Shown piece after piece: positions 877 through 57,918 of a stretch of DNA of 64,000 nt. Position numbers and translations under genes: made by a program. Under the pieces are notes generated by a model. It searched no databases and was not told the DNA's origin. It saw nothing but the letters and a program-made list of their open reading frames with translations. Source of the stretch: Hirudinaria manillensis (taxonomy: Eukaryota > Annelida > Clitellata > Hirudinida > Hirudinidae); NCBI GenBank assembly GCA_034509925.1, contig CM067537.1:827001-891000 (forward strand), in the 5' to 3' direction. How positions within the stretch are numbered: position 1 is the stretch's first letter; every line of letters begins with the position of its first letter.

Positions 877-3800
877 ATGCCCATATATCCGCACAAGTTA
901 TATTACACAGTTGTCATTTTTTACTTTCTAGCAGGTCAGTCGTTGCCGAGTTATTGATAAAGTTGCAGTCACGTTTTTGTCCTTAACAAATAAAATAAAA
1001 AATTTCTTAAAAATTTACTCGCGAATTCATCCAGAGCCAGATGCAAAAAATGTGGCCTCTACGAAATCAGGATCGTTCTGCAATAAGGCGGTGTCAAACA
1101 AAATATTCGACGGAGTCATAAATTATAAGGATAGTGTCATTATGGAAGATTGTGGTCATTCTACTATGATGATTAATTTAAAAAAGGCATACAGCATACA
1201 GTATGTGGTTGTTTACCATGGAGAAAGTAAGTTTTGCGTAATATTAATATCCATAATTACAGTTATTAATAGTGGCATAATCACAGAAAGATAGCGGGCT
1301 TGTAAGCCAGCCAATTAAAATAGCACACACATTTTAAAAACTAAGTGAGCGTCATTTATTTATTTTATTAGAAATCTATTTTTATTGCAAATGATATTTT
1401 TATTATAAACATTCAAATAATTAACGTCTTACACGCAGAAAGTGAAGACGCTCTGGATTTCTTCAGCGTTAAGTTGATAGTTGATGCGAACACTGAAACT
1501 TGCGGATTTCACCCTAGCAAAAGCTTACCTGTTGGTCAGGGCATAAGAATCAATTGCCGTGACATAAATAAATTATTTACAGACGTAAAACTAGAGCTGC
1601 AACAACCGAAAGCTTTAGACTTAGCCGAAATTGAAGTACACAGCTTTGGTAAGGCCCAACTTTTTAATTTCCGCTCCAATATTCCGAAATTTCGTAAAAT
1701 TCCCGAAAAACTTCATTTTAGCTTTAGAATCGGACACCTACGTGCTATTATATCAAGGTTGCTACGCATTTGTTGAAGGCCAAACTCATAAAATGAGTTG
1801 GAAGGATTGTCAACGGAAGTGCTTCGATGAAAATTATGTATTTGCCGCCATTAAGGTAGAAAATTTCAGATTTCCTATTTTTTAGTTTCAGATAAATATG
1901 TTGCAGTGAATACATTATGATTGCTTTAATAATTGCAACGTTGATATAGGTATTTATTTGCAATAATTTACGATTTTCATTGATATTGCTGTATTTTGGT
2001 GACTAAAGAATCAATTATTATTATTTGAATAATTTCTATTAAAGTATAATTATGACGATCACTTGGAATTAATTATTATATATATCGTGGACTTATTTCC
2101 TTTTATTAATCATTTCATCGATGGAGATAATAATATTATTGTAATAACCCGGGGTCCTCAAACTAATTATAGAACGTCAGGTTTATTGAAAGTGTTCAGA
2201 TGCCTTGGAAGATGAACAATGCTTAATTGATTAAGTCTTGAAATCTGCTGTTTCTCTAACTCTCGCTCTGCTTTCCGAGATAAATCTATTTGTCGAGGTT
2301 CATAACCAAAGAGTCTGAATAGCAATTAATTATTTAATTATAAAATTAAATTGCCGCTAAATTTAATTAATTACTAAATTAATTAATCAGCAATTTAATT
2401 TTAATTATTCTTCAATTATCTGGATCCAGGGATCCAACATTATTATAGATAATTATATTATTGTTGTAACCCGGGGTCTGATGAATTAATTAACGTAAGG
2501 ATATCTTTATTGGAATTAACTAATGGCAAATACGGCTGGACGATTTGGTCTATTGCAATTGCTGTCCCGATCGGAACTGCCTAATGACTCGAATCGCTAG
2601 ATACAACTTTGATATAAAAGATTCTGAATATTAACTAAACTTAATTAGTTGATTAATTAATGTCAAGGATCCAGCATTGCCCCCTCCTTAAATCTCCCTC
2701 CCGAATGTCATCTTTGATGGACTGATTCCTGTCGTTTTATGCACGGCTATTCGGTAGGCCATAAGGAAAAGTGGCAGGTATCTGTCCCAGTCATCTTGCT
2801 GTCCACTTACCATTTTTGACAAATACTGTTCCATGGTCCTGTTAAATCTCTCGGCCATACCGTCCGATTGCGGATGCAATGCAGTGGTTCTTATGGATTC
2901 CAAGGTTTTCGCATAGCTCTTGAAATATTTTCGACTCGGAATGCCTTCCTTGGTCCGAATGTAACTCTAATGGCACCCCGAATAGACTAATCCAATTATT
3001 TCCGAGAAATCTGTTGACTGTCCTGGATGGGCTAAGTATGCGAGTCTTCTGACGTCAGCTTCTAATTCTTGGAGTGATTCGCCCTGTTTTTGCGTACGGT
3101 TTTTTAATTCGTTTTTATGTACTTCCAGCATGTGGCCATTCCCAAATCTTTCCATGGCTTCTGCTATTTCTTAATAGGCTTTACAGTGCAGCATTGTTTG
3201 CAAAAGCTCGGCTGCCCTTCCTCGCAGTACCATTATCAGCTCTGTTGATTTTTGCTTTTCGGTGCACTTGTTACGTTCAGCGGCAGTTTCAAACTGATGT
3301 CTGAACACTTCCCATGGCCCTTGTCCGTCGAATAGTGGTGGTCTCGTCGTTTTCTCTCTTCTATATGTCTCTATTTTTGATTCATTGTACTTCTTAAACT
3401 TCTCTATTTCCTTCCTCTGTTCTTCTTTTAGTGCATCTAATTCTGCTTTAACCTTTCTAAGGTCGGCCATCTCCTTCGATGATCTGAGGTTGGCTACGTC
3501 AGTTTTTACCTCTTCCCGCAGAACATCCATGGATGTCTGGAATTCGGCTACGTCTGTCTTTACCTGCTCCCGTAAAACATCAATGGCTACCTGGAAGTTG
3601 GCTATATCGGATTTCATGTCTGACCGCAAAACATTATTGTCGGATTTCATATCCGACCGCAAAGCATTCATATCGGATTTCAAAGACCGAAGGGCTTCAG
3701 AATCTTCTTTCTTTTTTGGATCCTCAAAACCATACTCTGATGGATCATAATTATTTTCCAAAAGCCATTTCTCGAGCCATTCTTGTAGTTCGGCTTTTAG

Positions 3801-6800
3801 ACCATTTGCATCCAGGCCTCGATTCCTTAGTTCCCGTTTTAAATCGGGAACTCGCAACTCGTCCAGTATCTTAAGTCCCATTTCTGTCGTTAAAATTCGC
3901 TCTAGTGAATCGAAATCCCTTTACGACGTTAAATCCCACTCCTGACACCAATGTTTCAACCCGGGGTCTGATGAATTAATTAACGTAGGGATGTCTTTAA
4001 TGGAATTAACTAATGGCAAATACGGCTGGACGATTTGTTCTATTGCCGTATAAAGTTTTGGTTGGTTGAAATTTCGCAACATGGCTCGCCGACATTCAGT
4101 TGCAGTATCTGCGGTGGAAATCTTGGCAGATCGATCGAATTAAACAATTCTGTTGGATATTTAACTGCTTCATCTGCTTCCACAACATTGTCGATGGACT
4201 TAAACGTGACTGCCTCGCTTTGAATGATTAATATTGCTCAGTTCATAGACGTATTCTTGGCCTCAATAATAGCTCGTTCACTCAGCCAATCATGATTCTA
4301 TATTTGGAAGTACTTTTTCAACCAATTCTTTTGACGTCACGAAATTACAGAAATTATGAGGCAACGAAATTCGTCCTGAAGCCAGATCAACCATTTCGCA
4401 TTTGCATTACTGCTAACTTGATTATATCTTATATGGATCTTCTGTATAAATAATGTCCATCATATACTGTAACTGCTATTAGAGACCAATTATGATGTTT
4501 TTTTCCTTTGTCTATTATGTTTGTTTTTAATCCTAGATTTCGTGTTAATAAATGTTAATTTTGTTGAATCCCGAACTTTTCCTATACCAGTTATATTGGT
4601 AAATATTTGAATAAAATGAACCATAAACTAGACAGAGTAGTGAATTACCATGAATATTGCGGATAATAATTTGTTGATGACGTTGAAAAATATTTAAAGG
4701 CAAATAGTCTTTGTTCTTGCACAAATGCCATTGAAGCCAGATTTGTGTTAGATGAAACACAATGTAAAATTGCATGTAAAGGTCAACAAAGATATTGCGG
4801 GGGAAAAATTGGTTTTTCCATTTACTTGAGTAAGTATGCAAATCTTAACATTTCAATTGATTTCATTTGCCGTGGTTAGAAAGTCGTGATTGGTTTTAAA
4901 TCCAAATTTTTTAATAATACATATTTAATATTTGTTATAGTCAAGCCTCCTCTTCCTCATTACGTGGAATGTTATAGTCATGGTCGCAATCATACTGGTC
5001 TGGAGCTGAATGTACCCATAGAAGCGTGTCTGAACATGTGCATTAATTGGACATATTTTGGCTTGAAGGTAAAAACATCATAAGAAAAAGATATCAATTT
5101 CTGTTTTTAATTCTGTTAGCTTTTTATAATTGACCTTAAAGCATTTGTTAAATTGTTAATTTTCGATTTCAGCGGTTTTTACTTTTATTAAATTAGCTTA
5201 AATTCGTGAATACATATTGTAATAACCCGGGGTCCTCAAACTAATTATGGAAGGTCAGGTTTATTGAAAGTGTTCAGATGGCTTGGAAGATGTACAATGC
5301 TCAATTGTCTAAGAATTGAAATCTGCTGTATTTCTTACTCTCGCTCCTTTTTTCGAGATAACTCTTTGTCGAGGTTCATAACCAAAGAGTCTGAATAGTA
5401 CCCTGAACATTAAATAATTATTAAATTAATTAATTAGCAATATAAGTTTAAATATTCTTTAATTAACTGGATCCAGGGATCCAACAATATGATCTAAACC
5501 AAAGTTTCGGACTACGAAGCTCGATGGTCAGATGACACGACCAGAGTGAACTTTTTATTTATGTATTATTTTGAAATTTACATTTGGCGAAGAAGCCGAT
5601 TTGGTATTTTTGAGGGATTTCTTGAAACTGTCAGATGTTCTGGGAATTAAAGTATAGGTGACATTAGTTGGTCAAATGGAGTGTTTCACTGAGTTTGTTA
5701 GACGTAAGCAAGGGACAGAGCTTACTTTTTAAAATAGGATATAATTAGCGCTTTTAATATGAATAAAACAAAACGTGATTTAGATTTAAACTGAATAAGT
5801 TAAATATTGAGAAAGTAATTGTCTATTTTTATATTAGTTTGGGGATCGATGTGTATGCATGGGCGCTATACCAGAGACCGAGGTCGTTTCTTCCCAAACA
5901 TATTGTGTGTCGAAATGCTTAGGTGACCCAAATTGGCTTTGTGGAAGTATGAATGGAATGTCTACATATATAAGTAAAAATACAATTCTTTCACTGGAAA
6001 TTATAATGTCATTGTCATTAAAGAAATAACAGAGAGCTAAGTTGGCATTGAAACATTTATTTATTTTTATTTATTATTTTCTTGTCAGCTTGCAAGAGAG
6101 ATAATTCAATGAGTTGTTTAGACATAATTCGTTGCAAAGACGAAATGGACAAGTTTGGGGTTTGCAAGTCAGGTTGTAAAGAGGGATTCCTTGGTGAACA
6201 TTGCATGGAAAAAGGTGAATTGAATTTTATTTCATTTTTGACTTTTAACACAACTATAGTTTTGTGGTTAGATATATTATTGCACAATTATCCCATTCTA
6301 CAGCTTCTAATTAATATCCTAGTTGTTAATATATATAAAAATTATTTTTAACATCATGAATAATGTCTTTGAGAAGCACCTCGCACTCATTTAGTTTCAG
6401 TTTTTGTTGATGAGCCAACATCCACGCAGATGGAAACTAACACGTCTACAGATAGTGGTATGATTCTCTATTAATCTGTAACTCTATTAATCTTACCTAT
6501 TACCACTGATGTATTAAAATAAGCCGAGTGACCAATTAACAAAATTAATAAGTGAAACTTTACTGAGTGATTAATGAGTTTGAATATCACCACAAAATTA
6601 GGTGCATGTAATCTTGGCGCCTTATATCTTTTGGATTTTTGTCATAACTTACCGGTCACTATTAAAAATAATTTCAAATAATAGATTAAATTATTAATAT
6701 CATTATAATTTAATTCCGGATTGAGAAATCATTCTACACATTTCCCAATTAATTTTCTTTTCGTCAATATCTCCAACAATGTTATTTTTTACTTTTTGCA

Positions 6801-9393
6801 TATTCCTTTTATTGACTATTAGACACTAGAATTCATTTGCACTTTACTTTAGCATTTATCTATAATCACTAAACAAATAACTGCAATTGGTCATCAGATA
6901 ATCCTATATATAATATTGTTGTGAGCCGGGCTACTCAAACTAATTATGGTAAGTCAGATTCATTGAAAGTGTTCAGATGGCTTTGGAAGCTATTCAATGC
7001 CTAATTGTCCAAGTCGTGGAAACTGCTAATTCTCTCGCTCTCTGCTTTCGCTCCGTTTTCGCGATTACATGATTTGTCAAGATTCCAATCCAAACCTAAC
7101 CAAAGACTATGAATAGCACTCTAAACGTTAATTAAATATTAATTAAATTAAATTGCCATATAATTTTAATTATTCGTTAATTATCTATTTTCAGGGTTAT
7201 AACTTTGCCCCTCCTTAAATCTGTTCGTCCCGAACAGACATCCATTCCATCTTCATTTTCACTTTTAGAACATGATCTGATTGCTTCCCGACAATCTTTT
7301 AACTGTAAATCCCAGATCCTTTTGCTTTGTTCTCTTTTGGGATTTCTGTTTCCTCGGTTCTGCTCCTGTGTCCCGCAACTTTCAGTCGCGGAACATAGCC
7401 ACTTCCAAGTTCACCCTCCTGATCCACCATGTAGCCAGATACCAAACTCTCTACAGGATCACCTGCTCCACCTTCCATACGATGCACTGTCCCATCACAC
7501 CCGAAATCCCGAGCACTCCCTTTTGTTATCTCCAATGGAGCCGAAACATCTGAAGGCTCCACTGGTGTAGCTGGTTCCATGAGCTCAGCTGTTAAATCCA
7601 CGAGTTCTTCCAAAAACTCCACCTGCTCATGTATTAACACCGTGTGCTCCACTGGCAACTCTATAAGCTTCATCATTAACTCCTCGGGCTGCACTAATAA
7701 CTCCACAGGCTCTGCTGGTAAATCCATGGGCTCTTCCAAAGGCTCCACTTGATCCACTAATACCTTCGTGAGGTCTCTGGGCTCTGTTGTTGATTCCATG
7801 TGTTCCAATGGCGAGTCTTCTGAGTCCGCCATCATACACAGAGTTTCTGGAGACACGCACGCACTATGGTTGGATGGGTCTTTTAATGACCTCATCCTAA
7901 TGCTACCAGAAACTGTACCTAGAACAACGGTTATGATTTGTTCTTCATTGAGACCTTTGCAGGGTTCCTCGCAACATGGAAGCACCACTATGCTCTCCTC
8001 AAAAGAACCAGCAGGACTCTTCTCGGTAGAGTTTTCGCCTGAGACAAACGAGGCACCCTGACACAGAACCGCTAGGTCTTCCAAATCGCCCCTAATACTC
8101 CTCCTAAATTCATCTCTGGTCTTTTTCATAAAATCACAAAATTCCTCCATTATATCCAGTTTTATGACAAATATTTTCTCAAGTTAATATTCCTCCGGGT
8201 CATGGCCATTCTCTGTCAGCCATGCCCCAAGTCGCTCCTGCAAATCGGCTTTTCGGCCTTTCCAATCCAGGCCTCGATTTTTCAATTCATGTTTCAATCG
8301 AGACACTTCCAATTCTTCCAAGTACAAGATCATCTTTCACTTTTAAGTAATAAAGTCTCAACCTTAGTTGGATTACCCTTCAACTCTAGATCCAACTCCT
8401 GACACCAATGTAATAACCCGTGTTCCTCAAACTAATTATGGTAGGTCAGGTTTATTGAAAGTGTTCAGATAGCTTTGGAAGCTATTCAATGCCTAATTGT
8501 CCAAATCTTGGAATCTGCTAATTCTCTCGCTCTCTGCTTTCGCTCCCAATTCCCGATTACATGATTTGTCAAGGTTCCAATCCAAACCTAACCAAAGACT
8601 ATGAATAGCACTCTAAACGTTAATTAATTATTAATTTAATTAAATTGCCACATAAATTTAAATATTCGTTAATTATCTATTTTCAGGGTTATAACAATAT
8701 ATATAATAATATTATTAATATTAATTTTAATATTATATTAATTAATATTAATTAATATTATTAATATTATTAATAATAGTATTATAATATAATAACAATA
8801 ATAATATTGTAATATCCCGGGGTCCTCAAACTAATTATGGAAGGTCAGGTTTATTGAAAGTGTTCAGATGCCATGGAAGATGTACAATGCTCGAATGTCT
8901 AAGTCTTGAAATCTGCTGTTTCTATTACTCTCGCTCTGCTTTCCGAGATAAATCTATTTGTCGAGGTTCATAAGCAAAGACTCTGAATAGTGCCCATTAA
9001 TTATTTATCAAAATTGTATTGCCAATAAATTTAATTAATTACTAAATTAATTAATCAGCAATATAATTTTAATTATTCTTCAATTATCTGGATCCAGGGA
9101 TCTAACAATATATATAAAAATAATATATTATATACATTTTGTGACTAATTAGGAAATTGCAATTTCCATCAGGCATGATTGAGACCGGCGTTATGAAGAA
9201 TATGAAGAATGGTTTCTATTTATTCCTTGCGATCTTTAGTCTTTACTGTATGGCATGTTTATTTTGGTAAGTGTCAATCATGCTATCCATTCATTCATTA
9301 TCACGTTTGAAGCTTAATTTTAATGTTTATGTTAGCGTAAAAGAAGACTCAGTGGGGGATAGTGTTTCGGTGCCTGTTACTGTCTCATCCTGA
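877..9393 (+). CDS. Gene A: WSC-domain membrane receptor (discoidin-like, two WSC, EGF-like, TM)
   Basis: Exons inferred from splice sites and phase: 877-934, 1035-1226, 1439-1648, 1722-1855, 4700-4829, 4941-5068, 5838-5973, 6089-6214, 6395-6457, 9173-9266, 9336-9393. They total 1329 nt, an open frame of 442 residues. Residues 1-19 (MPIYPHKLYYTVVIFYFLA) form a signal peptide. Residues about 20-153 are a discoidin/F-lectin-like domain (NVA start, FDG, IRINC, AEIEVHSFG end). Two WSC domains follow (about 155-241 and 243-329), each split by a phase-0 intron and with eight cysteines (GCY...C...C, LCSC, C...C, YCGG). Then come a six-cysteine EGF-like module (330-371), a Thr/Ser linker, a TM helix and a tail ending VSVPVTVSS. 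WSC and discoidin folds bind carbohydrate in other proteins, so a surface lectin-like receptor is likely; the ligand is unknown. Introns 4, 6 and 9 are swollen by LTR elements. Splicing needs transcript support. Confidence 0.8.
2140..2439 (-). mobile_element. Solo LTR, 300 bp, with TTAT target duplication
   Basis: The sequence starts TGTAATAACCCGG and ends GGATCCAACA, so it has the TG...CA termini of an LTR. It is flanked by TTAT (2136-2139 and 2440-2443). It belongs to the same LTR family as the copies at 5218, 8808, 25970, 41630 and 61208. Orientation is given by analogy with elements in which the coding frames run on the minus strand. It lies in intron 4 of gene A. Confidence 0.85.
2462..4047 (-). 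mobile_element. Internally deleted Gypsy-type LTR retrotransposon
   Basis: A left LTR (2462-2676, TGTTGTAACCCGG...CCAGCA) is followed by a purine-rich tract on the minus strand. Next comes an integrase fragment (2688-2903, with HPQSDG and FNRTMEQYL), then a Gag piece (2967-3155). A 236-residue Gag N-terminus (3171-3881) follows, with a SAP-like start (DLKRELRNRGLDANGLKAEL) and a long coiled coil of repeated SDM/VLR units. After that are a tRNA-Leu primer-binding site and a right LTR from 3952, cut off near 4047. Gag runs directly into integrase, so protease and reverse transcriptase were lost by internal deletion. It sits in intron 4 of gene A. Confidence 0.8.
4048..4390 (-). pseudogene. Helitron/PIF1-type helicase fragment, unit A copy
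   Basis: On the minus strand, short frames read FCNFVTSKELVEKVLPNIES, then LSERAIIEAKNTSMN, then SIDNVVEADEAVKYPTELFN and FPPQILQLNVGEP. This order matches the C-terminal helicase region of Helitron-encoded PIF1-like proteins (SERAI..KN, SID..V..DEAV.YPTEF, PPH.L.LK.G). Frame changes and stops show it is dead. The same remnant is in units B (15328) and C (29030), so it was present before the units duplicated. Confidence 0.7.
5218..5486 (-). mobile_element. Solo LTR in intron 6 of gene A, ATAT target duplication, empty site in units B and C
   Basis: The TGTAATAACCC...GGATCCAACA element is flanked by ATAT (5214-5217 and 5487-5490). The sites at 21743-21760 (unit B) and 30423-30440 (unit C) read GAATACATATGATCT without an insertion. 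This gives both the exact ends and the order of events: it inserted after the unit duplication. Confidence 0.9.
7299..8150 (-). CDS. 283-residue ORF of the non-autonomous LTR element, acidic Pro/Glu/Leu-repeat protein
   Basis: This is the main open frame inside the short LTR element. Residues 1-30 are charged (MEEFCDFMKKTRDEFRRSIR). The middle (about 110-200) is a degenerate repeat built on VEP/VEL-LEEP-(M/V)DL units of roughly 7-9 residues, strongly acidic and low in complexity. The end is Gly/Arg-rich. I see no nucleic-acid-binding knuckle and no enzyme motif, and do not recognise the family. It lies just downstream, in the element's direction, of a 49-residue SAP-domain frame (8184-8333), so it may be a remodelled Gag. 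A fragment of its sequence recurs at 15211-15330 and 28913-29032. Confidence 0.5.
   Translation of the reverse strand: MEEFCDFMKKTRDEFRRSIRGDLEDLAVLCQGASFVSGENSTEKSPAGSFEESIVVLPCCEEPCKGLNEEQIITVVLGTVSGSIRMRSLKDPSNHSACVSPETLCMMADSEDSPLEHMESTTEPRDLTKVLVDQVEPLEEPMDLPAEPVELLVQPEELMMKLIELPVEHTVLIHEQVEFLEELVDLTAELMEPATPVEPSDVSAPLEITKGSARDFGCDGTVHRMEGGAGDPVESLVSGYMVDQEGELGSGYVPRLKVAGHRSRTEETEIPKENKAKGSGIYS
8184..8333 (-). CDS. 49-residue SAP-domain ORF (Gag N-terminus) of the non-autonomous LTR element
   Basis: Read on the minus strand it starts MILYLEELEVSRLKHELKNR and contains the SAP-like pattern L..LKHEL..RGLDWKGRKADLQERL. It ends in a stop after HDPEEY. The same segment opens the full Gag of the larger elements (minus strand near 21374 and 3881), which continue into a coiled coil. 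Here a stop cuts it off before the 283-residue frame. SAP domains bind DNA or chromatin in other proteins. Confidence 0.55.
   Translation of the reverse strand: MILYLEELEVSRLKHELKNRGLDWKGRKADLQERLGAWLTENGHDPEEY
8808..9107 (-). mobile_element. Solo LTR, 300 bp, ATAT target duplication
   Basis: TGTAATATCCCGG...GGATCTAACA, flanked by ATAT at 8804-8807 and 9108-9111. It lies in intron 9 of gene A, shortly before the TM exon. Confidence 0.85.
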
Positions 9394-12390: not shown

Positions 12391-13184
12391 AAGAATCTTC
12401 CTTTGTTGAAGAAAGTGCTTATAGGTTCAGGGAAAATGCCTTCAGGAAAGCTAATTATTCCTGCCAGATGATTGCAATCACAACAACTATACCGTATGAT
12501 AATAGAAGTAATGCGACAGAAAGTGGTATGACTTTATAGTCTCATTTCTTTTTATTAACGCAACTGCCAATTTTACGAGTACGTTTATTAAACAGCTTAT
12601 GGCGCCAGATGTTGAGAAAGAATTAGGTGCATAAGATTGCCTGAAATCTTGAAGTTCACTTATCTTCTGTAATGTCTATTATTGGTGTTATGGCTTATTT
12701 CACTACTGATATTTAATACCGGCTGTTGTTAAAAGATCTTTAACGTAGCGAACAAATTAGTCAATGGATCATCGGTAATTTAAAAAAAAAACAAAAATAA
12801 ATTGTTTGATGTAACGATTTCGTATCTTATGAATATTCCTTTTCTCGAATATTGAAAACTATCAGTTATTTATAGGGTCGCCGGTATAAAATAAAAGTCT
12901 TTTAATATTTAAATGAAATAATGATCAAATGGTCATCGGAAAATTTGACTAACTGAGAAAATCTTAGGTTCCAGAAAACGTAACCGATATCGTTTTATGA
13001 AAAGAGTGAGGAATATTTTTTACGTAGTCATTCGAGCAGCATTTGCAACCTGCCTATTTTGCTTACTTTGGTAATTGTCATATTAAACAATTAAAAAGTA
13101 TTAATAAGAATTTGTGTAATTTTAAAATTTATTTTCAATCAATCTAGCACCTCCGAGTCGGAATCGGATACGATAAGAACTTGA
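12391..13184 (+). CDS. Type II membrane-anchor cassette (linker, TM, tail) of unit A
   Basis: Three exons with the splice phases used for gene A's own anchor: a 135-nt linker (12391-12525, phase 1 to 1), a 103-nt TM exon (12968-13070, phase 1 to 2) and a tail (13148-13184). The linker is ionic and then Thr/Asn-rich, ending ATES. The TM exon has a very basic stop-transfer start (RKRNRYRFMKRVRN) and a hydrophobic run ending in Cys after splicing. The tail reads TSESESDTIRT then stop. No ectodomain exons stand between gene A's tail and this cassette. It is either an alternative 3' end of gene A or the remains of a deleted gene. All three exons are open here; in unit B the same cassette is broken. 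Confidence 0.6.
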
Positions 13185-13839: not shown

Positions 13840-16800
13840 ATGCCCATATATCCGCACAAGTTATATTTCACAGTTATCATTTTTTACTTTCTAGCAGGTC
13901 AGTCGTTGCCGAGTTATTGATAAAGTTGCAGTCACGTTTTTGTCCTTAACAAATAAAATAAAAAAATTTCTTAAAGTTTTATTCGCGAATTCATCCAGAG
14001 TCAGATGCAAAAAATGTGGCCTTTAAGAAATCAGGATCGTTCTGCGATAAGGCGGTGTCAAACAAAATATTCGACGGAGTCATAGTTTATAAGCAAAGTG
14101 TCTTTATGGAAGACTGTGGTCATTCGTTTGTAATGATTAATTTAAAAAAGGCATACAGCATACAGTATGTGGTTGTTTACCACGGAGAAAGTAAGTTTTG
14201 CGTAATATTAATATCCATAATTACAGTTATTAATAGTGGCATAATCACAGAAAGATACCGGGCTTGTTAGCCAGCCAATTAAAATAGCACACACATTTTA
14301 AAAATAAGTGAGAGTCATTTATTTATTTTATTAGAAATCTATTTTTATTGCAAATGATATTTTTATTATAAACCTTCAAATAATTAATATCTTACACGCA
14401 GAAAGTAAAGAGGCTCTGGATTTCTTCACCGTTAAGTTGATAGTTGATGCGAGCACTGAAATTTGCGGATTGCACCCTAGCAAAAGCTTACCTGTTGGTC
14501 AGGGCATAAGAATCAATTGCCGTGACATAAATAAATTATTTACAGACGTAAAACTAGAGCTGCAACAACCGAAAGCTTTAGACTTAGCCGAAATTGAAGT
14601 CCACAGCTTTGGTAAAGCCTAACTTTTTAAATTTCCGATCCAATATTCCGAAATTTCGTAAAATTCCCGAAAAACTTCATTTTAGCTTTAGAATCGGACA
14701 CCTACGTGCTATTATATCAAGGTTGCTACGCATTTGTTGAAGGCCAAACTCATAAAATGAGTTGGAAGGATTGTCAACGGAAGTGCTTCGATGAAAATTA
14801 TGTATTTGCCGCCATTCAGGTGGAAAATTTCAGATTTCCTATTTTTTAGTTTCAGATAAATATGTTGCAGTGAATAAATTATGACTGCTCTAATAATTGC
14901 AACGTTGATATAAGTATTTATTTGTAATAAATTTGCGATTATCTTTGATATTGCTGCATTTTGATGCCTAAGCATCAATTATTGTTATTTGCATAATTTC
15001 TATTAAAGTATAATTATGATGATCACATTGAATTAAATACTAAATATATCCTGGACTTATTTCCTTTTATTTATCATTTCATCGATGGAGATAATATTAT
15101 TATTATAGATAATTATATTATATTATATTGTAATAACCCGGGGTCCTCAAACTGATTATGGAAGGTCAGATTTATTGAAAGTGTTCAGATGGCTTGGAAG
15201 ATATACAATGCTGCCAGAAACTGTATCTGGAACCACAGATATGATTTGTTCTTGTTTTTACAGAGTTCCTCTCCTATTTCCTCGCAACATAGAAGTATCA
15301 CTTTTTTGTATAGTTTTCAATCGAAAGCAATCTGTTGGATATTTAACTGCTTCATCTGCTTCCACAACATTGTCGATGGACTTAAACGTGACTGCCTCGC
15401 TTTGAATGATTACTATTGCTCAGTTCATAGACGTATTCTTGGCCTCAATAATAGCTCGTTCACTCAGCCAATCATGATTCTATATTTGGAAGTACTTTTT
15501 CAACCAATTCTTTTGACGTCACGAAATTACAGAAATTATGAGGCATCGAAATTCGTCCTGAAGTCAGATCAACCATTTCGCATTTGCATTACTGCTAACT
15601 TGATTATAACTTATATGGATCTTCTGTATAAATAATGTCCATCATATACTGTAACTGTTATTACAGACCAATTATGATGTTTGTTTTTCCTTTGTCTATT
15701 ATGTTTGTTTTTAATTCTAGATTTCGTGTTAATAAATGTTAATTTTGTTGAATCCCGAACTTTTCCTATACCAGTTATATTGGTAAATATTTGAATAAAA
15801 TGAACCATAAACTAAACAGAGTAGTGAATTATCGTGAATATTGCGGATAATAATTTGTTGATGACGTTGAAAAATATTTAAAGGCAAATAGTCTTTGTTC
15901 TTGCACTAATACCATTGGAGCAAGATTTGTGTTAGATGAAACACAATGTAAAATTGCATGTAAAGGTCAACAAAGATATTGCGGTGGAGAAAATGGATTT
16001 TCCATTTACTTGAGTAAGTATGCAAATGTTAACATTTTAATTGATTTCATTTGCGTTGGTTAGAAAGTCGTGATTGGTTTTAAATCTAAATTTTTAGTAA
16101 TACATATTTAATATTTGTTATAGTCAAGCCTCCTCTTCCTCATTACGTGGAATGTTATAGTCATAATAACAATTATTCTGGTCCCGTACTGCCTGTAACC
16201 ATAGAAGCGTGTCTAAACAGGTGCATTAATTGGACATATTTTGGCTTGAAGGTAAAAACATCATAAGAAAAAGTTATCAATTTCTGTTTTTAATTCTGTC
16301 AGCTTTTTATAATTGACCTTAAAGCATATTGTTGTAACCCGGGGTCTGCTGAATTATTTAACGTAAGGATAACTTTATTGGATTTAACTAATGGCTAGAA
16401 GATCTGGTCGATTGCTTGTCTTGATCGGAACTACGTAATGACTCGAATCGTCTTCGAAATGAAAGATTCTGAATATTAACTAAACTTTAGGGATTAATGT
16501 TAGGGATCCAACATTGCCCCCTCCTTAAATCTGTTCGTCCCGAACAGGCTGATCTGTTTCTCCGTGATATTTTGCTAATCGATTGCTGTGAACCACTTTC
16601 TTTCTAGTGCTTGTTGACTTCTGTATGCGGTATATCACGTCGTTTATTTTCTTTATGATTCGGTATGGTCCTTCCCAATCTTTTTGTAACTTTGGTGACT
16701 TTCCTTTTTTTCGTAGGGGGTTGTATAGCCAGACTAGTTCATCTTCCTTAAAACTTACATCATTGGCTTGCCTATCGTATCTCGCTTTGGCTTGATCGCT

Positions 16801-39330: not shown

Positions 39331-39367
<37 letters not shown>

Positions 39368-40561: not shown

Positions 40562-40611
<50 letters not shown>

Positions 40612-40923
40612 CATATGTCTTGGAAGATATGCAATGTCTAATTGTCAAAGTCTTGAAGTCAGCTATTTCTTTCACTCTATGTTCTTCAAATTACTACATT
40701 ACACTATTGTCGAGATTCATAACCAGACTCTTAATAGTACCCTGAATATTAATTTAATTATGAAATTAATTAATTCGCATTCTAATTTAATTATTATTTA
40801 ATTAATGGGTTAATTACTTAATTATTTGATTACAATAATATAATTTGTTATGAATTTTATACATGCAAAACATCTTTTCTTCCTAGTTTCGGTGGTGAAT
40901 CGGACTCTTCTTCGACATCTTGA
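35736..40923 (+). CDS. Gene D: WSC-domain membrane receptor, diverged tandem copy
   Basis: Exons: 35736-35793, 35894-36085, 36289-36498, 36573-36706, 37231-37360, 37471-37610, 38356-38479, 38768-38893, 40198-40251, 40384-40477, 40887-40923. This gives an open frame of 432 residues. The signal peptide is MPRCPHKLYYTVIIFYFLA. The discoidin-like domain and WSC1 are close to A-C. WSC2 has a longer variable loop (ECYYHYYDYDGEMFRAPR) and a shorter second half. The six-Cys EGF-like module is close to A-C. The linker (TTRAPSRTTEF), TM (MALALIAIIGCCAVLAM) and tail (FGGESDSSSTS) are unlike type I, II or III, so D has its own anchor. Introns 8 and 10 have been enlarged by repeats and a decayed LTR. The TM exon is again 94 nt and the tail junction again makes Cys. 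Confidence 0.78.
39128..39560. repeat. Microsatellites and unclassified GC-richer repeat in intron 8 of gene D
   Basis: An (ATA)n run at 39128-39176 and a (TTA)n run at 39328-39366 bracket a 150-bp segment. It is followed by a GC-rich segment (39420-39510, GGCCGGGGCGCC and GCCCGGCCGG). The arrangement suggests one or two inserted retroelement ends with simple-repeat tails. I do not recognise the family. Confidence 0.5.
40509..40840 (-). mobile_element. Decayed solo LTR interrupted by (TA)n tracts, intron 10 of gene D
   Basis: The LTR phrase TCTTGGAAGATATGCAATG occurs twice (about 40533 and 40618), separated by a (TA)n run of about 45 bases (40563-40608). After the second copy the rest of an LTR can be followed: AAGTCTTGAAGTCAGC, then TCGAGATTCATAACC and TTAATAGTACCCTGAAT. 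This looks like an LTR of the same family broken by microsatellite growth. Confidence 0.55.
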
Positions 40924-44082: not shown

Positions 44083-44116
<34 letters not shown>

Positions 44117-46885
44117 TGCACACAGCTGCTTAAGCGTTAATGTACTTTTTCTCAAATGTGGTACATCAGCAACTGGATTACCAATCATAAAACATGTTCT
44201 GCTGTATCGCGGATGCTTTCAAAGCTTTGGTAAAAATGATGTCGAACTTGACTTGATTGAGTGCCAGCAACAATGCTTGAAGGATGGACATTCATTTATT
44301 GGGATTAAGGTAATAATCTGTATTGTATGATTATTAATCTTAGGAATGCATTTAAAACTACTTATTAACTCTATTAAGTGTTTTACCCGTAACGACGAAT
44401 GGAACTTAATTAATAATAATTGTACCAGATCACTTGTGTAACCTTTGATGCGACCTTCGATAGTCTACGAAGTTACTTTCTAAGGTTCAGAATTGTTTTA
44501 CATTTCTATGGTCTGCCTAATAACTACGACCACAAAAAAAGTCCTTTTAGGATGGTGCTTTCATAACGAGATTCAAAGCTGAGAGGCAGTCAGTCTTAAA
44601 CATCAGGCCAAGCGGGAATAAATATATTTATATTTGATTTAATTATTCATTTCAAACAAAATCGAAGTTTACTACTTGTATGACCAACAAATACATGCTA
44701 TCAAACAGAATATATAATAGAGCTGCACTCGGAGAAGTTTAAAATAAATTTTTGATAAAGTTCTTTTCATCAAACATAGTATTATGTAAAACCTTTAAAA
44801 ACCATTTGCCACATCTGATAATTTTTTAATGGCCAGAATTGATTTGTTTTTCGTTTAAATTCAAAAAGCCTTTGTGACACGTAAATGGTAAAAAAATATG
44901 TTTGATTTAATTTCATATTAACTCCATTAATAATTGAAAGGGCAACAAGCATTGCGCTTGTGCTAATGATTTCGACGTTAATAAAGAATTGCCAAAAGAA
45001 AGATGCAAACTGAAGTGCAAGGATGGCATCAGATATTGTGGAAGTTTAAATAGCTATTCTGTTTACTCAGGCTCGTACCTCTAATTACTGGACTGGCGTA
45101 ATATTATAACTTATTACTGGTCTATTACAGTATTGTAACGAGATTATTGGTCACCAATGTAACTTTAGCTTGGACATATCAGATATTGAATGTTGGTTAA
45201 TTATTACTTAATTAATTAATTCTAGTCAAGTGTTAGTCATTAATTTAAACTACAAAGACTACTTGCTAAGCAATGACTTGTCGGTGGTCCCTATAAATGG
45301 GAGATAGCTAGCCACGGGACTAGAATAACGTCCGATGATCCGACTTCATGCTCTTACATATATACGTTTAATAGGTACATACGTTATTCTGAAAATAAAA
45401 ATTAAAATTCCATAACGCCATAAAATGTCGTTACATTGACGTAATTAATTTACACAATTTTATTTATTTAAACGGTTCATTTTATATTACAACAGTTAAA
45501 CCTCCGCTTCCCTATTATGTGGGGTGTTTTAGATACCCTACTGCCTCAGATGGTACCCTTTTGACAGGTGACATGTCGGTCATCAGATGCTTATATCAGT
45601 GTGATCAATTCAGATTTGCGAAACTTCAGGCAACTATCTTGTTTCTGAATTAACTTGACAATAGTGGCAATATATTGAGTACAATTTAGAAAAATATTCA
45701 GATATCGTTGGATATCATTTCCGCAATATTCTCACATAATAGTTAACTACTTTGAACAATTTATAGGATGGAGATCGTTGCATTTGTGAAGAAACAGTCG
45801 ACGAGGGTAAAGTAGAGTCAAGCAAATGTGATAAGACATGCACTGGCGATATGTTGATAACTTGTGGCGGACCTACGTATGCGGCCGTATATGCAAGTAT
45901 GGTAATGATAGTAATGGAATGGACTTGAAATGGATTCCCTTAAATGTATCTCTTTCCAGCATGCAAACAGGGCGTTGAAAGCAAATTAAAATGTTCCGAT
46001 TATCTTCAATGTAGAGATGGTTTTGCCTTTGACATGTTTGGATCTTGTTCTCCTTGTAAACAGGGATTTGTTGGAGATTATTGTTTTCAAATGACAGGTA
46101 CATTCATTGCCACTAAGCCATACAACGATCCTCAATTATGCGTATTTAAAGGTGCATTCTTTCAATTAATATAATAACGTCAAAACAAAGAAAAGTGAAA
46201 GACTGATATTGCTATTTCATTACTTAATTAATATTTAATGTACTCAGGATACCATTATCCAAAAGAATTATGCAATTTTCTTGTTCATTTAACAGTCTAA
46301 TTCGTCGACTATTAGCTAAAAAATGAATTTATTAGTTTCTTCGGATAACTATAATTTGCTAATATTGTGTTATTCTTGTCATTATTTCTATTTAGATTTG
46401 ACTATAACTATATCGACATTAAACCCAACCACGACTGAAACGGCAGCAGTCAAAAGTATGTCTACACGCTTATTATATGTTAGCCTAGGTTTCTTCGATT
46501 GTTATTATTTAGATTTATGATGTTAAGTGAATTATTGTATTATAATTTAAATTCAATTAATAAATGAGTTTTAAAATATAGCTTGACTTTGATTTATGAT
46601 AACAACAAATTATTGTTAACTACCAATTACACATCACAACATATTAATATTAACCACCAGATCTTGAGGATTTATTGAAACGTACAAAACAGTACGCACC
46701 CTTCATAATTCTGGCAACGATAATTCTCTGCTTTCTAACGACGTTGCTCTGGTTTGTTATAACAGATTTTAAAACAACTTTTTGTTATATTTTCATTATA
46801 ATTATTGATTCTTGGTCTTATTATCATCAGTGGAGGTGCAACAGAGGAGGACAGTTCAATACAGTCCGCAGCAATTTCGGAATAA
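42270..46885 (+). CDS. Gene E: diverged WSC-domain membrane receptor
   Basis: Exons: 42270-42327, 42603-42806, 43772-43993, 44170-44309, 44941-45070, 45496-45629, 45767-45896, 45960-46097, 46396-46455, 46661-46751, 46831-46885. This gives an open frame of 453 residues. The first exon is again 58 nt (MLVGRFPNKAALYLLQICA). The discoidin-like domain starts SLNVALNK and ends WISEIEVHTLG. WSC1 (GCFQSF...HCAC...YCG) and WSC2 (GCFRYP...RCIC...TCGG) keep eight Cys each. The EGF-like module has six Cys. The linker is Thr-rich. The TM is PFIILATIILCFLTTLL and the tail acidic (CGGATEEDSSIQSAAISE). The donors after exons 5 and 6 read GC rather than GT (CAG/GCTCGT and CAG/GCAACT), at exactly the family positions. 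The gene may use GC-AG introns or may be losing splicing. First-exon donor gttggt is weak. Confidence 0.72.
42830..43760. other. Intron 2 of gene E; unrecognised 600-bp insert-like segment
   Basis: Between about 43020 and 43680 base composition is more even than the surrounding AT-rich intron. It contains phrases such as GACCGAGTGACTACCGCAAG without an open frame. It may be an old mobile element; I do not recognise it. Confidence 0.3.
43999..44116 (+). repeat. (ATT)n/(CAT)n microsatellite just after a 5' splice site of gene E
   Basis: The donor of exon 3 is at 43994. (ATT)n starts five bases later and passes into about 100 bases of (CAT)n with a few CGT interruptions. Frames through it give poly-Ser, poly-His or poly-Asp and are not coding. 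Confidence 0.9.
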
Positions 46886-48714: not shown

Positions 48715-51700
48715 TTATGAACTCGCTGTTCCTTCGGAGCCGCTAAACGGAAATTTTACAAAATACAAATAAAAGTGGAAAGAAATTTTAAAACGAAATA
48801 CGACAGACCCAAGCATCAAAAAGCAGGTCAATAAAAGCAAAATCAGGATGATTAGAGGCATAATAATTTTGGCAAGTTCAAACAACTCGTTTTGTTCACC
48901 TGAAAGATATTTTAATATTGATGATCAAAAATGTTCATTATCATCAATTCAAATTTTGGTAAATATAGGATGACAGTTTTATCTTTTTTTAACCCTGTTA
49001 TTTTAAAGATACAAACTGAGGCAACAAACATTATTTTAATTATCCATTATCCAATTTGTTAATGCCCGGTCAATTTCAGATCAAAAATGATTAATTTGAA
49101 AAAAATATTTTACTTTTCTCCGTTACTTTTTTTTGCTCCGTTTCTTCTGTTTTTAATGCAGGTATGTTTAGATCTGAAATCGAAATCGTGTTAACATTGG
49201 TAGATGCTTCTGCCACAATGAACTGATTAACTTCAATAAATAACGAAGGAGAATTATAAGTTGATTTAGAGATTCCACAAGTTCATTGAGAAAAATGATG
49301 CTAATTAGATTACGACGCGATGTTTTAGTGAATCTACATTTTAATAGCACCAATGCATTTACCCAAGGACATCTTGATAATAATAATACTGAATCAAATA
49401 TTCTAAAACAAATACCTTTGTGCATGCAGTGATCGCCCGAATAACCCGGTTTGCAACCGTCTTCACATCGTCCATACATATCGTAATGATCATCTTTGCA
49501 TTGCAAGATGGACTTGCAATCCATGGAATTGTGTCTCACGCATGCTGGGGAGAGATGTTGTGCGAAAGTAAATAAATCTTCTTTTTTTTATTTTCGAAAG
49601 GTGAATACTATGATCATCCAAGAACGACGCAATTCTATAAATGGTTTGGATATTTCTGATCCAAAATAATACTTGAGTGTTCTTAATCGGGATCTTCCGA
49701 CACCGTCCAATTATGCGACTATGCATAAGAGTATGGAAAATTTGTTTCTTACTTCTGTACAAAGATAATCCATTTTTGCCGCCACAATTAACTCTATTGT
49801 CTCCATTACACACCATTTCACAATTCTTGACGGAAGATCGTACGTAATGTGATTCTTGATATTGATGACAGAGACATCGTCTGTTATCCTTTGAATAATA
49901 TCTCAATGAATATCAATGATATTTTGAAGGTATGATATTTCACTTTCAAATAAATGTTGCGATAACAATTAGTAAAATTGTAAATGATATTCAAACGTCG
50001 TTACCTGTATCCCGATGAATGCTACATTAGGGCACTTTCTCAAACATTTAGTGATACTGATATCTGGTATATCAAAACCTTTATCCGTTATTAGATCAGG
50101 GTTAGATATAATGCACGAATGATAATATGGAAGAGGAGGTTTGACTGGTAAGCATAAATTATAAAACATCATACTAACTGAGGCAGTTTATTAATAATTA
50201 AATAAATTTGTTGATGCCATTAACATTGTGTATTTTAATATTTAATTTATTATATGCGTTTTAAAGACGCTAATAGTGTCAGATGATGAAGACCTCGCAT
50301 AATGTCGTGTTCAGTTTACCGCATTATTCATATATAATGGGAGAACACGTTTATTTACGTAAATCATGTAATACAAACAATGGAGAACACTTAAATTTTG
50401 GTATGCCGTATAAATTATGTTTCGCAAGTTATATATAGGATTTGGTGAGTTGCTATCTTTAAATTATTAAATCTCTTAAAATTGTTTTCTCGGCGCCCCA
50501 AAATGATGGCCGACGACACATATTTTTAAGAAGACATGTTTATATTTTTCTTTGACCTCATTCAATTATGTTTCCATTTTACTCTTATTTAGTATTTAAG
50601 AGACTATTTTATAAATCCACAAATAACTTCCATCTCCTTCCTGGCTTTCCTGATGGCATATTCTAAGTCCGATTTTAATTTGAATTGTTTCAAAAAGATA
50701 TTTATTTGTTCTAACCTATGCCAAACAAATTCCTTTTCTATCGAATTTTTTGTCTCTAAAATCTATGTGAGCATTCATCTAATTAGAAATAACCGGTTGG
50801 ATCCTTTTCTTCTTAATTGTATTATATTCAGTGACAATGCTTGAAGTTTGCAACTATGTAAGTTAAATTTTATAGGTCATTTATGAATCTCTTCCTACCA
50901 ATATTAGGCAGGTCAATATTTTAACGTATTTTATATTTAAGTAGACTTAAGAAGATACGGCGAGGTTAAAATGAGATCGAGAAGGGATAGCTATTAAGAA
51001 TTATTAAATTCACTATTAAATAATGAATTACTCACTTATATAAACAGAAAATCCATCTAAACCACCGCAGAATCTTTGACTACCTTCGCATAATATGTCG
51101 CACTTATCATCAGGCAAACTATCTTCTGGATTTATATTATTATTGCAGCTGCATAGCTTATTGGCCTGTTTAAAATTAATTTTAATAATAATATTATTAT
51201 TGTTATTAATATTAATATTATTTTATTATTATTCCATTGCATCATTGATGTATTACAGAAAGACATATAGGATATCCAACTTTTCGTTTCTATGTCGTGG
51301 TTTATTGCAACAACATGAAGTTAATACCATATTAATATATTTTTAATGTTTGGTTTGCGTTTCGCGGCATACTTATATATTCAATAGTCAAGACATATGA
51401 CATATTTTAAATAAAATTCTCTGAGGCGAAAAGATGTTCTGGAAAAATTGACAATAAATTAATTGGCTAAGCCGATGGTGTGTAGTTGTCCATATGTTTC
51501 CTTTTATATTTTACATAGTCTCTCGTCAACTTAATATTGAGGACGAATGGGTTTTGGTTATTTTAGTTTAACGACTAATTCAGCTTGTAGCGGTCGAGTT
51601 CGGAGAGTCAACGAAATACTTCATAATAAATGAAAAATATAACCTTTATACCGACAAATACGAAATTTTCAAAGAAACACTTTCTCTGGCACTTTTGCCA

Positions 51701-52684
51701 ATCTTGCTCAAAGCTTTGACCACCAAGTTTCGCATAACATCCTCGATGAAGGAGTGCGAATTTGTCAGTTTTCAAAGCTAAGACAAATTATAGGAACTAT
51801 ATAATAAATGACTTTAATTAAATTATCTATGTAATTTATTTAATGTATTATTATTATTATTAAATTTGATCACTAAACCTAACCCTAATCCTAACCATAA
51901 CCCATAACCCTAGCCTTAACCATAATCCTAACCCTTATATATTTGATAAAAATATATAATAATAATATAATTATTAACATATCACTAGTTTATGAAATGG
52001 AATACTAATTATAGCTATTGTTAATAATATTAATTTCTCCTTAATATCATTTATTATCACCTAAGGTGTGGACTTCAAATTCGGAAATATCTATATCTCC
52101 ATTTTTAATCCTCAGTTGAACGACCGAAAACAAATAGGTTACATCTTTACAATTTACTCTCATAGGCTGCCCAACTTTTGCCGTACTCGGATATTCTCCA
52201 CATGCTTCACTTTTATGTCCTTCAACCATATCAATGTCAAAGTAATCCAAGTTTGCTGCAAATTCTGGAAATTTGTGATGGTAATAACCATACTGTCACT
52301 AATTTGTTTATATTTAAAATACAATTTCGTTTAGGAATGTATTATCTGTAAAAAGATCTTGGGCTGACGACCGATATCCCAATCGCCGTTACAAAATGAT
52401 AAACGAATTATGATTTTACAACAATATAAAAAAAAATAATAGTTTATGATAAATATTTACACCATAAAATAATTCCAACCTAGGCCATGATGGATTACAA
52501 CGTATTGAATGCTATATCGTTTTGCCAAATCAACTCTCAGTCTTGATGTTTCGCATTCATTCGTCAACTCAACGCTATTCTCCGTTTCACCATCAAATAT
52601 CTCTTTATCGACTTTATCACAAAACAAACCAGATTTTCCCAAAGCTATGTTGATTGCAAATGTTCCTTTTGATCATAAAAAAAT

Positions 52685-53905: not shown

Positions 53906-54104
53906 ATCCATCCATCCATCCGTCCGTCCGTCCGTCCGTCCCTCCATCCATCCATCCATCCATCCATCCATCCATCCATCCATCCATCCATCCATCCATC
54001 CATCCATCCATCCATCCATCCATCCATCCATCCATCCATCCATCCATCCATCCATCCATCCATCCATCCATCCATCCATCCATCCATCCATCCATCCATC
54101 CATC
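53906..54104 (+). repeat. (CCAT)n tetranucleotide microsatellite, ~200 bp
   Basis: Perfect CCAT units with a CCGT block near the left end. Frames give WMDG or HPSI repeats; these are not genes. Confidence 0.97.
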
Positions 54105-54778: not shown

Positions 54779-57700
54779 TTAACTTAATTTCACAATAAAG
54801 CACTTATACCTGCTCGATGTTGAGGTACTGGAATCAGTGCTATCATCCGAATCTGACCTCATGTATAACGCCCTCACCAAGCAATCAAAAGTAAAACATT
54901 TTTAATAATGTTATTATACTTACATCGTTATTTGTTTATGGATTTATCAGCACTTACCAGGTTATCAAAAGCGACAACAACGGCAACAATATAAGAACAG
55001 CAATTTGATAGGGGCTGGGTGTCTTAGTATTTGGGAGATCCACCAAAGTGAGGTTGCCTTGATAGATAAAATGTTTTCTTATTTATTAATTAATTCATAT
55101 AAATATGGTCATCTAAAAAATTTTAAGTAAAAGTTTATTTAGCAGTTGATGTTCGTTTGCTTATAAATAAATAATTATAAATTAATAAATAAAGTATAAA
55201 TTACTTTATTTATTGGGCTTAATCGAAAGAAAAACGTTATAGCTTTTACAACTTTAAAAATATAAATTCATAGCTAAGCTTTTGTTCAGGCCCAAACGTT
55301 ATGCCAAATACCAATTAATATACGAAAATGAACGAGAATTGAAGTCAACGGACCAAAGGGCAAACCTTTGAAAAAACAATGTTCACCAAAGAAAGCCTTT
55401 TTACATCCGTACGGGCACTGCCCATATTCGTTCCACGAACAGTAAAACAGTGAGGAACACGAGACACGGTAGGAGGCACTTCCGCTACAAGCTGGCAAGA
55501 AATTAATTACCGAAATATTATGCATTTGATAAATTACAATAGATATAATAGTAATAAATTATAATAAAATGAAACATATCAAATTAAGATTTAAAATTGT
55601 AATGAATTCCAATAAACATAACATTTGTATGTAATTAATAGTAATAACATAAATCGTTATATAATAAATACAAATGTTTAACTATCAAATCGTGGAAAAT
55701 AATTATAGATTTCTCAAAATAAATTTCTGTCCAACTTTTGTAAACAGAAACGTGATCTTCAGCCCCGCAGAAGGAATCCGAATCGCCTGGACAGGTGACA
55801 CTGCACAGTTCCACGTCCGTCTTTTCAATCGAAATGTTCTCCGAATTGCTACACATACAGACCGAGCCGTTCTGTGACAATCATAAGCGATGTCCGACAT
55901 CAGACATGCATTACGGGGACGTGCTTTCGAATATCATGAAAGCTTGGATAACGAATGCAAAGGACAATTCATTTATAAACTTTTCATATCATCTCAAACC
56001 TTAATTATTACTTAATAAATATAAATAAGTTTCAATTGTTGACTGAGATTTCAGACTCTAAGGTGAATCGAGTTTCCAAAGCCCAGTGACAATGGATCTA
56101 AAAAAATATCAATTGCAAAGTTTGTATTTTTCGTAAATCACAATTTATGAAGTTAAGAAGTAAAATCGACAAAAATGAAATCCCAGTCTGAAACACAAGC
56201 CAAGGTTCAAGACAGAAATTCCAGTTAACCGTTATCAATGCATAATAATCGAGCTCGCAGAAATGAAGACACGTTGAAACGTTCATGGTTTCCAAATTGA
56301 GCCTTCTCAATTTACCAAATGTAGTTTGATATTCCACGCATCCGACAAACCGAGGCAGATAAATGTTGACTTCAAATAAAAAAATAATGAAATATCTATT
56401 TAACAAATTCTAAAAGGTTTACACTAAATTGTACAGGGCACGCTTACGGTGCCCCATCTTGGTTTTACCTATAATATGACATTATACTACATTACTATAT
56501 AATAATAAATGCAAATAATCAATAATATTTCCCACCGAGATAGATCGAGTAGGCCTCCTCGCCCCCGCAAAGATACTCCTCATGGCCTTGGCACTGGTAG
56601 TAACACTTGGAATCGCTAACTTCGTACTTCCCTTCGTATTTCAAGCCGCAGTTGCAATCGTCCCCTGCCTACGGATTTGTCTTCAAACGTTTGCTTGACG
56701 TTCTTAACATTTCGTATCGCTCAATCTAACCGGGCACACTATCTGATAATATCTCATGTCTGCCCACACTCCAAACCCCATAAACTTTGGAGGGTGGGTC
56801 TTGCGGGAAGAAATACCCCCTCGTTACTTCGTTGAAAAGGTCTTATATCTAACTATGTCCATTAGATAATTCATTAGGTTTCTTTCTATACCTACGGTGA
56901 CAAACTTCATAATCAATGTTTGACTTACCTTTACTGCTAGGAAGATCGTCTTTAGAAAAACGCAAAGACTTTTGCAAGAATCCAGTGAAGTGTACGCCTG
57001 GAAGATGCTGCGAAAAGTCGACACGCATCCGTAGGGCACAAAAATGCCTTTGCTGATCGTTCCAGAATCTGATAAGAAATTGATGACTGAAATTTAAATG
57101 TTATTTGAAAATGATTTAATCACTTTATGTGGTAGATGCTAGACTTGAAAATACCTTGTGAGGTATAAAATGTGATAATTACAAAATAATTACTCTCTTG
57201 TCCCCTATGTACACCTATTTCGTGCTTTTCTGAATTAAAAAAATCAATTAAATTTGATTTACCAAAAGTGTGAACCTCAATTTCAGATATGTAGAAGTCC
57301 TTCTTTTTCTTCGTCTTCAATTGGACCGCGTTAACGCCGTGTGGATTGTCGCAATTCACTCGCATTCCTCGATGGTAGTCTGCAAAATTTCTAGTCGATT
57401 TCTTAGGATATTCGGCACATTGGCGGCTATCTTTGTCATAGTAGTTCAGAATACGAAAGAAGTCCAAGGCATCGTCTCTGACTAACCAGGAAAGAAATGG
57501 TGACTTGTAATTTGTATAAATACTTATAGTTTGATTTAAAATCGGTTTTATTTGAATACCAACCACATTTCAAACTGTTTTAAATTTTTAAACTATTACC
57601 GACCAGTGTATTACACCGCATTAAATATATTTAAACATCGTACTTCATGGCATCAGACCAACCATTATTCCAATCTATGCCCTCATACACGACTACATAA

Positions 57701-57918
57701 TGGACTTGGAATGTTCCAGAAAGGCCGATGCTGAGGTAAGGCTCTGGCAAGCAATCGCTTTCAATCAATTCAAAGTTGACCATGGATTTGTCACCATCTG
57801 TGATCAGATCAGATGTTTTGTCGTTACAAAAGCTTGCACCTTTCTTCAGAGCTACATTAACGGAAGCTACAGAGACGTGGCCGACTATGCTAAGCAATGT
57901 CCAAATCATCAAAGTCAT
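54779..57918 (-). CDS. Gene G: WSC-domain membrane receptor on the minus strand
   Basis: Exons in reading order: 57918-57663, 57481-57263, 57068-56929, 56668-56536, 56369-56230, 55871-55736, 55491-55366, 55057-54958, 54857-54779. This gives an open frame of 442 residues. Signal peptide and first discoidin half share one exon (MTLMIWTLLSIVGHVSVASV then NVALKKGASFCND). The second half ends ISEIEVHTFG. WSC1 (YGCVSTF...CNCG...LCGG), WSC2 (VNIYLPRFVGC...VCMC...FCG) and a six-Cys EGF-like module (CSGSASYRVSC...GEHC) follow. No separate linker exon is seen. The TM exon (100 nt) has a Thr/Pro stalk and IAVLILLPLLSLLIT. The tail is Asp/Ser-rich (SDSDDSTDSSTSTSSR) and runs on to a stop at 54779, or a donor inside it may give another end. 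The fused first exon and GC-richer codons set it apart. Confidence 0.75.

Follow-up and report, generated by a model that had tools for sequence, protein, structure and literature searches.

A tandem array of seven genes with discoidin-like, WSC and EGF-like modules in the leech Hirudinaria manillensis, putative members of a large family of membrane recognition receptors

Expanded families of recognition genes are known among invertebrates, including the FREPs of molluscs and the SRCR and 185/333 genes of echinoderms. Of the proteins with which the genes described here share single domains, Kremen combines a kringle and a CUB domain with one WSC domain and is not known to have a discoidin domain or to form a tandem family, and the F-type lectins carry a fucose motif made up of a His followed by RxDx4[RK]; we know of no WSC domain in F-type lectin chains. 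In the excerpt of PMC3927609, the WSC domain of kremen 2 is split by a phase-0 intron, and the excerpts of PMC5336659 describe glycerotoxin of Glycera as a multigene family of annelid venom proteins of about 1257 amino acids, with a signal peptide, two WSC domains, one EGF domain, a CCP domain and a long C-terminal part without known domains. Here we describe an array of seven genes that join a discoidin-like domain, two WSC domains and an EGF-like module, found in a window of 64,000 nucleotides (the whole stretch analysed: positions 827,001 to 891,000 of contig CM067537.1, assembly GCA_034509925.1, hereafter C12:827001-891000) of the 148.4-Mb, 23-contig genome of Hirudinaria manillensis. We put at roughly 0.5 the probability that the seven genes belong to a large leech family of recognition receptors, type I membrane proteins that spread by tandem duplication. 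The architecture, the membrane anchoring of genes A-D and the tandem family are, as read from the genome sequence, well supported.

Copies were located by tblastn with exon fragments, three half-domains being added from listed open reading frames, which gave seven genes between window positions 877 and 57918, five on the forward and two on the reverse strand. All share one exon order: two discoidin-like exons (D1, D2), the halves of two WSC domains (W1a, W1b, W2a, W2b), an EGF-like exon and a transmembrane (TM) exon. In window coordinates, with the E value of the WSC match, the genes are:

877..9393, forward strand: gene A; signal 877-934, D1 1035-1226, D2 1439-1648, W1a 1722-1855, W1b 4700-4829, W2a 4941-5068, W2b 5838-5973, EGF 6089-6214, TM 9173-9266, tail 9336-9393; 421 residues; WSC E 5.6e-16.
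13840..23358, forward strand: gene B; signal 13840-13897, D1 13999-14190, D2 14402-14611, W1a 14686-14819, W1b 15884-16013, W2a 16124-16251, W2b 22076-22211, EGF 22319-22444, TM 23138-23231, tail 23301-23358; 421 residues; WSC E 1.9e-16.
27545..32152, forward strand: gene C; signal 27545-27602, D1 27703-27894, D2 28106-28315, W1a 28390-28523, W1b 29914-30043, W2a 30154-30284, W2b 30757-30892, EGF 31000-31125, TM 31932-32025, tail 32095-32152; 422 residues; WSC E 9.5e-16.
35736..40923, forward strand: gene D; signal 35736-35793, D1 35894-36085, D2 36289-36498, W1a 36573-36706, W1b 37231-37360, W2a 37471-37610, W2b 38356-38479, EGF 38768-38893, TM 40384-40477, tail 40887-40923 (by eye); 414 residues; WSC E 3.3e-11.
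42603..46885, forward strand: gene E; D1 42603-42806, D2 43772-43993, W1a 44170-44309, W1b 44941-45070 (GC donor), W2a 45496-45629 (GC donor), W2b 45767-45896, EGF 45960-46097, TM 46661-46751, tail 46831-46885 (by eye); signal exon not found; WSC E 1.9e-16.
48809..52665, reverse strand: gene F; D1 52665-52480, D2 52264-52061, W1a 51777-51644, W1b 51165-51036, W2a 50144-50005, W2b 49888-49753, EGF 49544-49416, TM 48899-48809; signal and tail exons not found; WSC E 5.9e-17; F5_F8_type_C_2 E 0.0013 (under cut-off).
55366..57918, reverse strand: gene G; signal-like stretch from the ATG at 57918 within the D1 exon (to 57663), D2 57481-57263, W1a 57068-56929, W1b 56668-56536, W2a 56369-56230, W2b 55871-55736, EGF 55491-55366; TM not found; WSC E 4.1e-15.

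The intron phases proposed in the first-pass annotation (1-1 for each discoidin exon, 1-0 and 0-1 for the halves of each WSC domain, 1-1 for the EGF exon and 1-2 for the TM exon) fit all seven genes. Acceptors are AG in 49/49 ectodomain exons and donors GT in 47/49, against frequencies of 0.043 and 0.049 for acceptor and donor at random window bases. The chosen site ranks top within 15 bases for 46 of the 49 acceptors and 47 of the 49 donors; the scoring matrix was rough and self-made and the sites were picked with the phases in mind, so that these figures are a fit check and not a blind test. Both exceptional donors are GC and lie in gene E, at the ends of W1b and W2a, where they represent either real GC-AG introns or early decay. 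All 49 ectodomain exons are open, and pairwise identity among the seven joined proteins spans 28-88%. The tblastn scan and the splice-site fit together confirm the seven copies, in the order given, that had been reported at 877-57918; the frame lengths of 432-453 residues reported with them were not reproduced, the complete frames being those of A, B, C and D, which are open from ATG to stop over 421, 421, 422 and 414 residues. Signal exons are present in these four genes, that of gene A beginning at 877, and gene G has an in-frame ATG with a signal-like stretch in its D1 exon; none was found for E or F. A second signal-peptide-like exon lies at 27362-27419, upstream of the signal exon of gene C.

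All seven joined proteins exceed the Pfam cut-off for WSC (PF01822), at 43.7-62.1 against 27.8 bits and with two stretches each, and both WSC domains of every gene are interrupted by a phase-0 intron. None of the full-length proteins gives a direct F5/8 type C match over the cut-off, F5_F8_type_C_2 matching only gene F at 19.8 against 27.8 bits; in a wider domain set, two of 11 members match F5/8 type C at E<=0.1, with a best E of 0.00013, though the member displayed falls short of the cut-off. A paralogue with the same order of pieces, L008 (C11:2664484-2667591; its gene model was built with the phases supplied to the modelling script), has a domain that passes F5_F8_type_C_2 at 31 against 27.8 bits and can be aligned to F-type lectins whose structures are known, FBP32 (3cqo, E 3.9e-8) and also Sm-hPAF, and its second WSC domain aligns with Kremen-1 chains (best E 1.3e-8). 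In hhalign comparisons with the L008 domain, an 11-row profile of the C12 domain (A3) matches with a probability of 93.1% (E 3.2e-7, 125 columns) and a seven-row profile (A1) with 63.7% (E 6.7e-5, 90 columns). At the level of profiles, the C12 domain is thus linked via L008 to the discoidin fold, as a degenerate, F-type-lectin-like member. Searches of the PDB with two discoidin profiles were set aside, one giving no matches and the other two chance matches (E 0.74 and 0.84), with no discoidin chain. The EGF-like exon has six invariant cysteines in the seven rows, and five of the seven match EGF_STAB1-2 below threshold (best E 0.0028; the member displayed does not reach the cut-off); the Pfam scan of the full-length joined proteins recognised no EGF family. 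Of the domain make-up proposed earlier, profile searches on the joined proteins bear out the WSC domains in all seven genes; the discoidin domain fails directly and holds through L008, and the sub-threshold matches in five genes suggest the EGF-like module.

A type I layout of signal, one TM helix and tail is complete in A, B, C and D, as judged by hydropathy and open frame, and incomplete in E, F and G. The short-tailed membrane anchor of the first-pass annotation is supported for A-D, whose complete frames include both TM helix and tail. A TM exon of phases 1-2 occurs in six of the seven genes; that of F has a weak donor and was found with no tail exon, and none was accepted for G, though hydrophobic frames occur there. 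Last exons were found by conservation in A, B and C and chosen by eye in D and E. Tails comprise 12-25 residues, the splice cysteine included, and are rich in serine and acidic residues. A splice-formed cysteine stands first in all seven completed tail modules (those of A-E, plus the additional ones of A and B), in a search that admitted only cysteine or tryptophan as this residue. The extra modules, which may be alternative 3' ends or duplicate leftovers, comprise one further module in A and two in B, of which the second is broken and the third open:

12968..13184, forward strand: second TM-tail module behind gene A; TM 12968-13070 (Arg in the hydrophobic stretch), tail 13148-13184; same phases, open; would give 417 residues.
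25486..25652, forward strand: second TM module of B; frame broken (by eye against A), tail frame 25616-25652.
26341..26589, forward strand: third TM-tail module of B; TM 26341-26434, tail 26514-26589; open; would give 427 residues.

The seven genes make up only a small fraction of the family. Applied to the 261 kb surrounding the window, of which 15,000 bases are N, exon profiles reveal 24 units, grouped by eye; at E<0.02, 18 of them show every one of the seven exon types and the other six lack one or two. A few isolated exons occur between the units. With one D2 exon as query, at least 87 matches were obtained genome-wide (E<=0.05), of which one has an internal stop; 78 are on C12, and 62 of these fall within 0.54-1.47 Mb. 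The census is a lower bound, as the query recovers 15 of the 20 D2 exons (E<0.02) in the checked 261 kb, which holds 24 units, and extrapolation from this recovery ratio suggests that the family probably has more than a hundred genes. WSC exons cluster on C11, C2 and C4 too, among the matches listed (the best 150 of 333 candidates scored in the WSC search, the best 108 of 369 in the whole-protein search). A C4 unit has the same exon order, with D1 barely detectable (10.3 bits, E 0.3). A second cluster lies at C11:2.627-2.665 Mb, where L008 and six more copies of its discoidin domain occur within 40 kb; the less degenerate discoidin domain of this cluster is perhaps nearer the ancestral form.

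Coding comparisons show that modules diverge unevenly between copies. Among A, B and C, non-synonymous divergence of the second WSC domain (WSC2) is 0.12-0.15, or 2.8-4.0 times the intron divergence (Fisher 3.3e-7, 2.5e-6 and 3.5e-7; the short D2-W1a intron, which gave no hit of 80 bases, was dropped from the intron count); WSC1 (0.02-0.05) and EGF (0.02) have low non-synonymous values. Silent divergence of WSC2 is raised as well, at 0.09-0.12. For the unit pair u780/u788, the four WSC exons are near-identical, differing by a single amino-acid change and a single silent one in total, and non-synonymous divergence is 0.150 in D1 and 0.133 in D2, with silent values of 0.090 and 0.207. A self-written codon model with one omega, four taxa per set and a fixed tree was applied in eight tests. 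For four units at 897-946 kb of C12 (D2 left out, and W1a of u897 taken as 908475-908597), omega for the EGF exon ran to its upper bound, 33, and differs from 1 with p 0.0018; the values of 2.16 for D1, 0.75 for W1 and 0.62 for W2 do not differ from 1. The stretch C12:897000-947500 is a sub-array of four recent copies, in which pairs of EGF exons differ by as many as 19 amino-acid-changing substitutions and by no more than 0.5 silent ones.

Other features of the locus, in window coordinates, are:

2688-3920, reverse strand: retroelement-like fragment in the W1a-W1b intron of gene A.
16525-21398, reverse strand: retroelement-like frames in the W2a-W2b intron of gene B, one of 566 residues and reverse-transcriptase-like by eye, others integrase-like.
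51873-51935: short telomere-like array of CTAACC units.
58623-59820, forward strand: a different small gene beside gene G, within the array; it has an EGF_CA domain (33.9 bits against a cut-off of 27), an EB/EGF-like stretch that stays below its cut-off, and a hydrophobic frame resembling a TM exon.

In the genome as a whole, the erythrocruorin linker family, which is not known outside annelids, has eight matches, seven over the cut-off, and none in 14 control genomes. Hirudin profile positions 1-16, 17-42 and 42-64 have matches that follow one another on a single strand inside 421 bases, with none in the control genomes; the last match falls short of the cut-off (E 0.009), and the middle one includes a stop in a matched stretch that may be intron. 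Linkers and hirudin together point most probably to a hirudin-bearing leech.

In the recognition-receptor reading, each gene combines a signal peptide of its own with a degenerate discoidin domain, two WSC domains, one EGF-like module, a membrane helix and a tail of about 12-25 residues. The products would be expressed and sit on cells, where the discoidin/WSC/EGF surface would serve to bind glycans or proteins, whether these belong to other cells, to microbes or to hosts, and copies differing in single modules would supply a repertoire. We infer this recognition or immune role, with expression, surface location and binding, from gene structure and family pattern; it would fit the many tandem copies and the uneven divergence. 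Several results weigh against it. A uniform TM search accepted an exon in two of the seven window genes only (B and D), in 3/9 flanking C12 units and in 0/5 units of C2, C4 and C11, so that in A, C, E and F the anchor is supported by less strict hydropathy or by similarity. The tails, examined for motifs by eye only, show no recognised signalling domain, and a signal would have to pass via a partner or clustering, or else the proteins would act by adhesion or uptake. The fucose motif occurs in none of 14 distinct C12 discoidin-like domains, L008 having His..RxD and not the full motif, which makes sugar binding by the discoidin domain doubtful. In no module among A, B and C does non-synonymous significantly exceed silent divergence (WSC2 p 0.34-0.44), and the omega values for A-D of 1.32 (D), 0.53 (W1), 0.77 (W2) and 1.99 (EGF) do not differ from 1; in all, seven of the eight codon-model tests fail to reach 0.05. 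Because silent divergence of WSC2 is raised too, exchange between paralogues could explain WSC2 divergence as well as selection does, and on these grounds positive selection on WSC2 of A-D was dropped. A bolder version, in which more than 100 leech membrane recognition receptors of an undescribed discoidin-WSC-WSC-EGF-TM architecture are diversified module by module, with membrane-tail cassettes made interchangeable by alternative splicing, for defence or self/non-self recognition, is tentative, and we rather doubt that all of it holds.

A TM anchor whose short tail has no signalling domain that was recognised, together with the large number of paralogues in a single tandem array, would also suit a cell-adhesion or tissue-patterning family, engaged in homophilic or heterophilic adhesion in the nervous system or epithelium and diverse for the sake of cell identity rather than defence; we regard this as unlikely, the single positive-selection signal and the uneven module divergence of recent copies being less expected of a conserved adhesion code. 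It is improbable that the array consists mostly of decaying copies, with pseudogenes left by unequal exchange, few working genes and a family size that means little. The frame-broken TM module of B, the two GC donors of E, the want of an accepted TM exon in G, the six units of 24 that are incomplete at E<0.02, the stray exons between units and the retroelement-like frames in the introns of A and B would all follow from such decay, but every ectodomain exon in the window is open, A-D are complete, and 18 of the 24 units keep all seven exon types.

Other leech salivary families act on prey blood or platelets. That the ectodomains form a feeding or salivary family, shed or secreted to act on the same targets, is in keeping with the hirudin matches and with the alignment of the L008 discoidin domain to a platelet aggregation factor of F-type lectin fold, and the annelid venom protein glycerotoxin likewise joins an EGF domain to two WSC domains (excerpts of PMC5336659). 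A TM exon of phases 1-2 in 6/7 window genes and in 3/9 flanking units tested argues against secretion, however, and glycerotoxin is a venom protein that has a CCP domain and a long C-terminal part without known domains, with no discoidin domain reported in those excerpts; such a family is improbable. The reading of the genes as recognition receptors is the likeliest of these, at roughly even odds.

In searches of open-licence PMC full texts, judged by title and start of abstract, the discoidin-WSC-WSC-EGF-TM combination was not found, and no paper in these full texts brings together leech, WSC domain and genome. Nor do the excerpts of PMC5336659, PMC10087013, PMC4581086, PMC3927609 and PMC6767649 describe the combination; the word WSC is absent from the text of PMC10087013, which concerns leech assemblies. 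Kremen-1 and kremen 2 resemble the array in their WSC domain, with the Kremen-1 alignment of L008 as the direct link, and kremen 2 shares the phase-0 intron inside that domain (excerpt of PMC3927609). Glycerotoxin differs in that no discoidin domain is reported for it in the excerpts of PMC5336659, from whose text list alone its domain order is taken. Kinship with glycerotoxin was considered and dropped; the array has a TM exon in 6/7 genes, no CCP domain in the Pfam scan and proteins of 414-422 residues in A-D. F-type lectins (FBP32, Sm-hPAF and a fucolectin-related protein) share the discoidin domain, through L008, and differ in the fucose motif, found in 0/14 C12 domains. To our knowledge, cell-surface recognition in annelids is little charted, and a family of this size in one leech would supply a defined set of candidate receptors with their exon models, and, in the sub-arrays of recent copies, material for tests of ligands and selection. 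FREPs, SRCR genes and 185/333 genes are built of other domains, and the recognition function of the leech genes is putative; what the array would have in common with these families is many tandem, diversifying copies.

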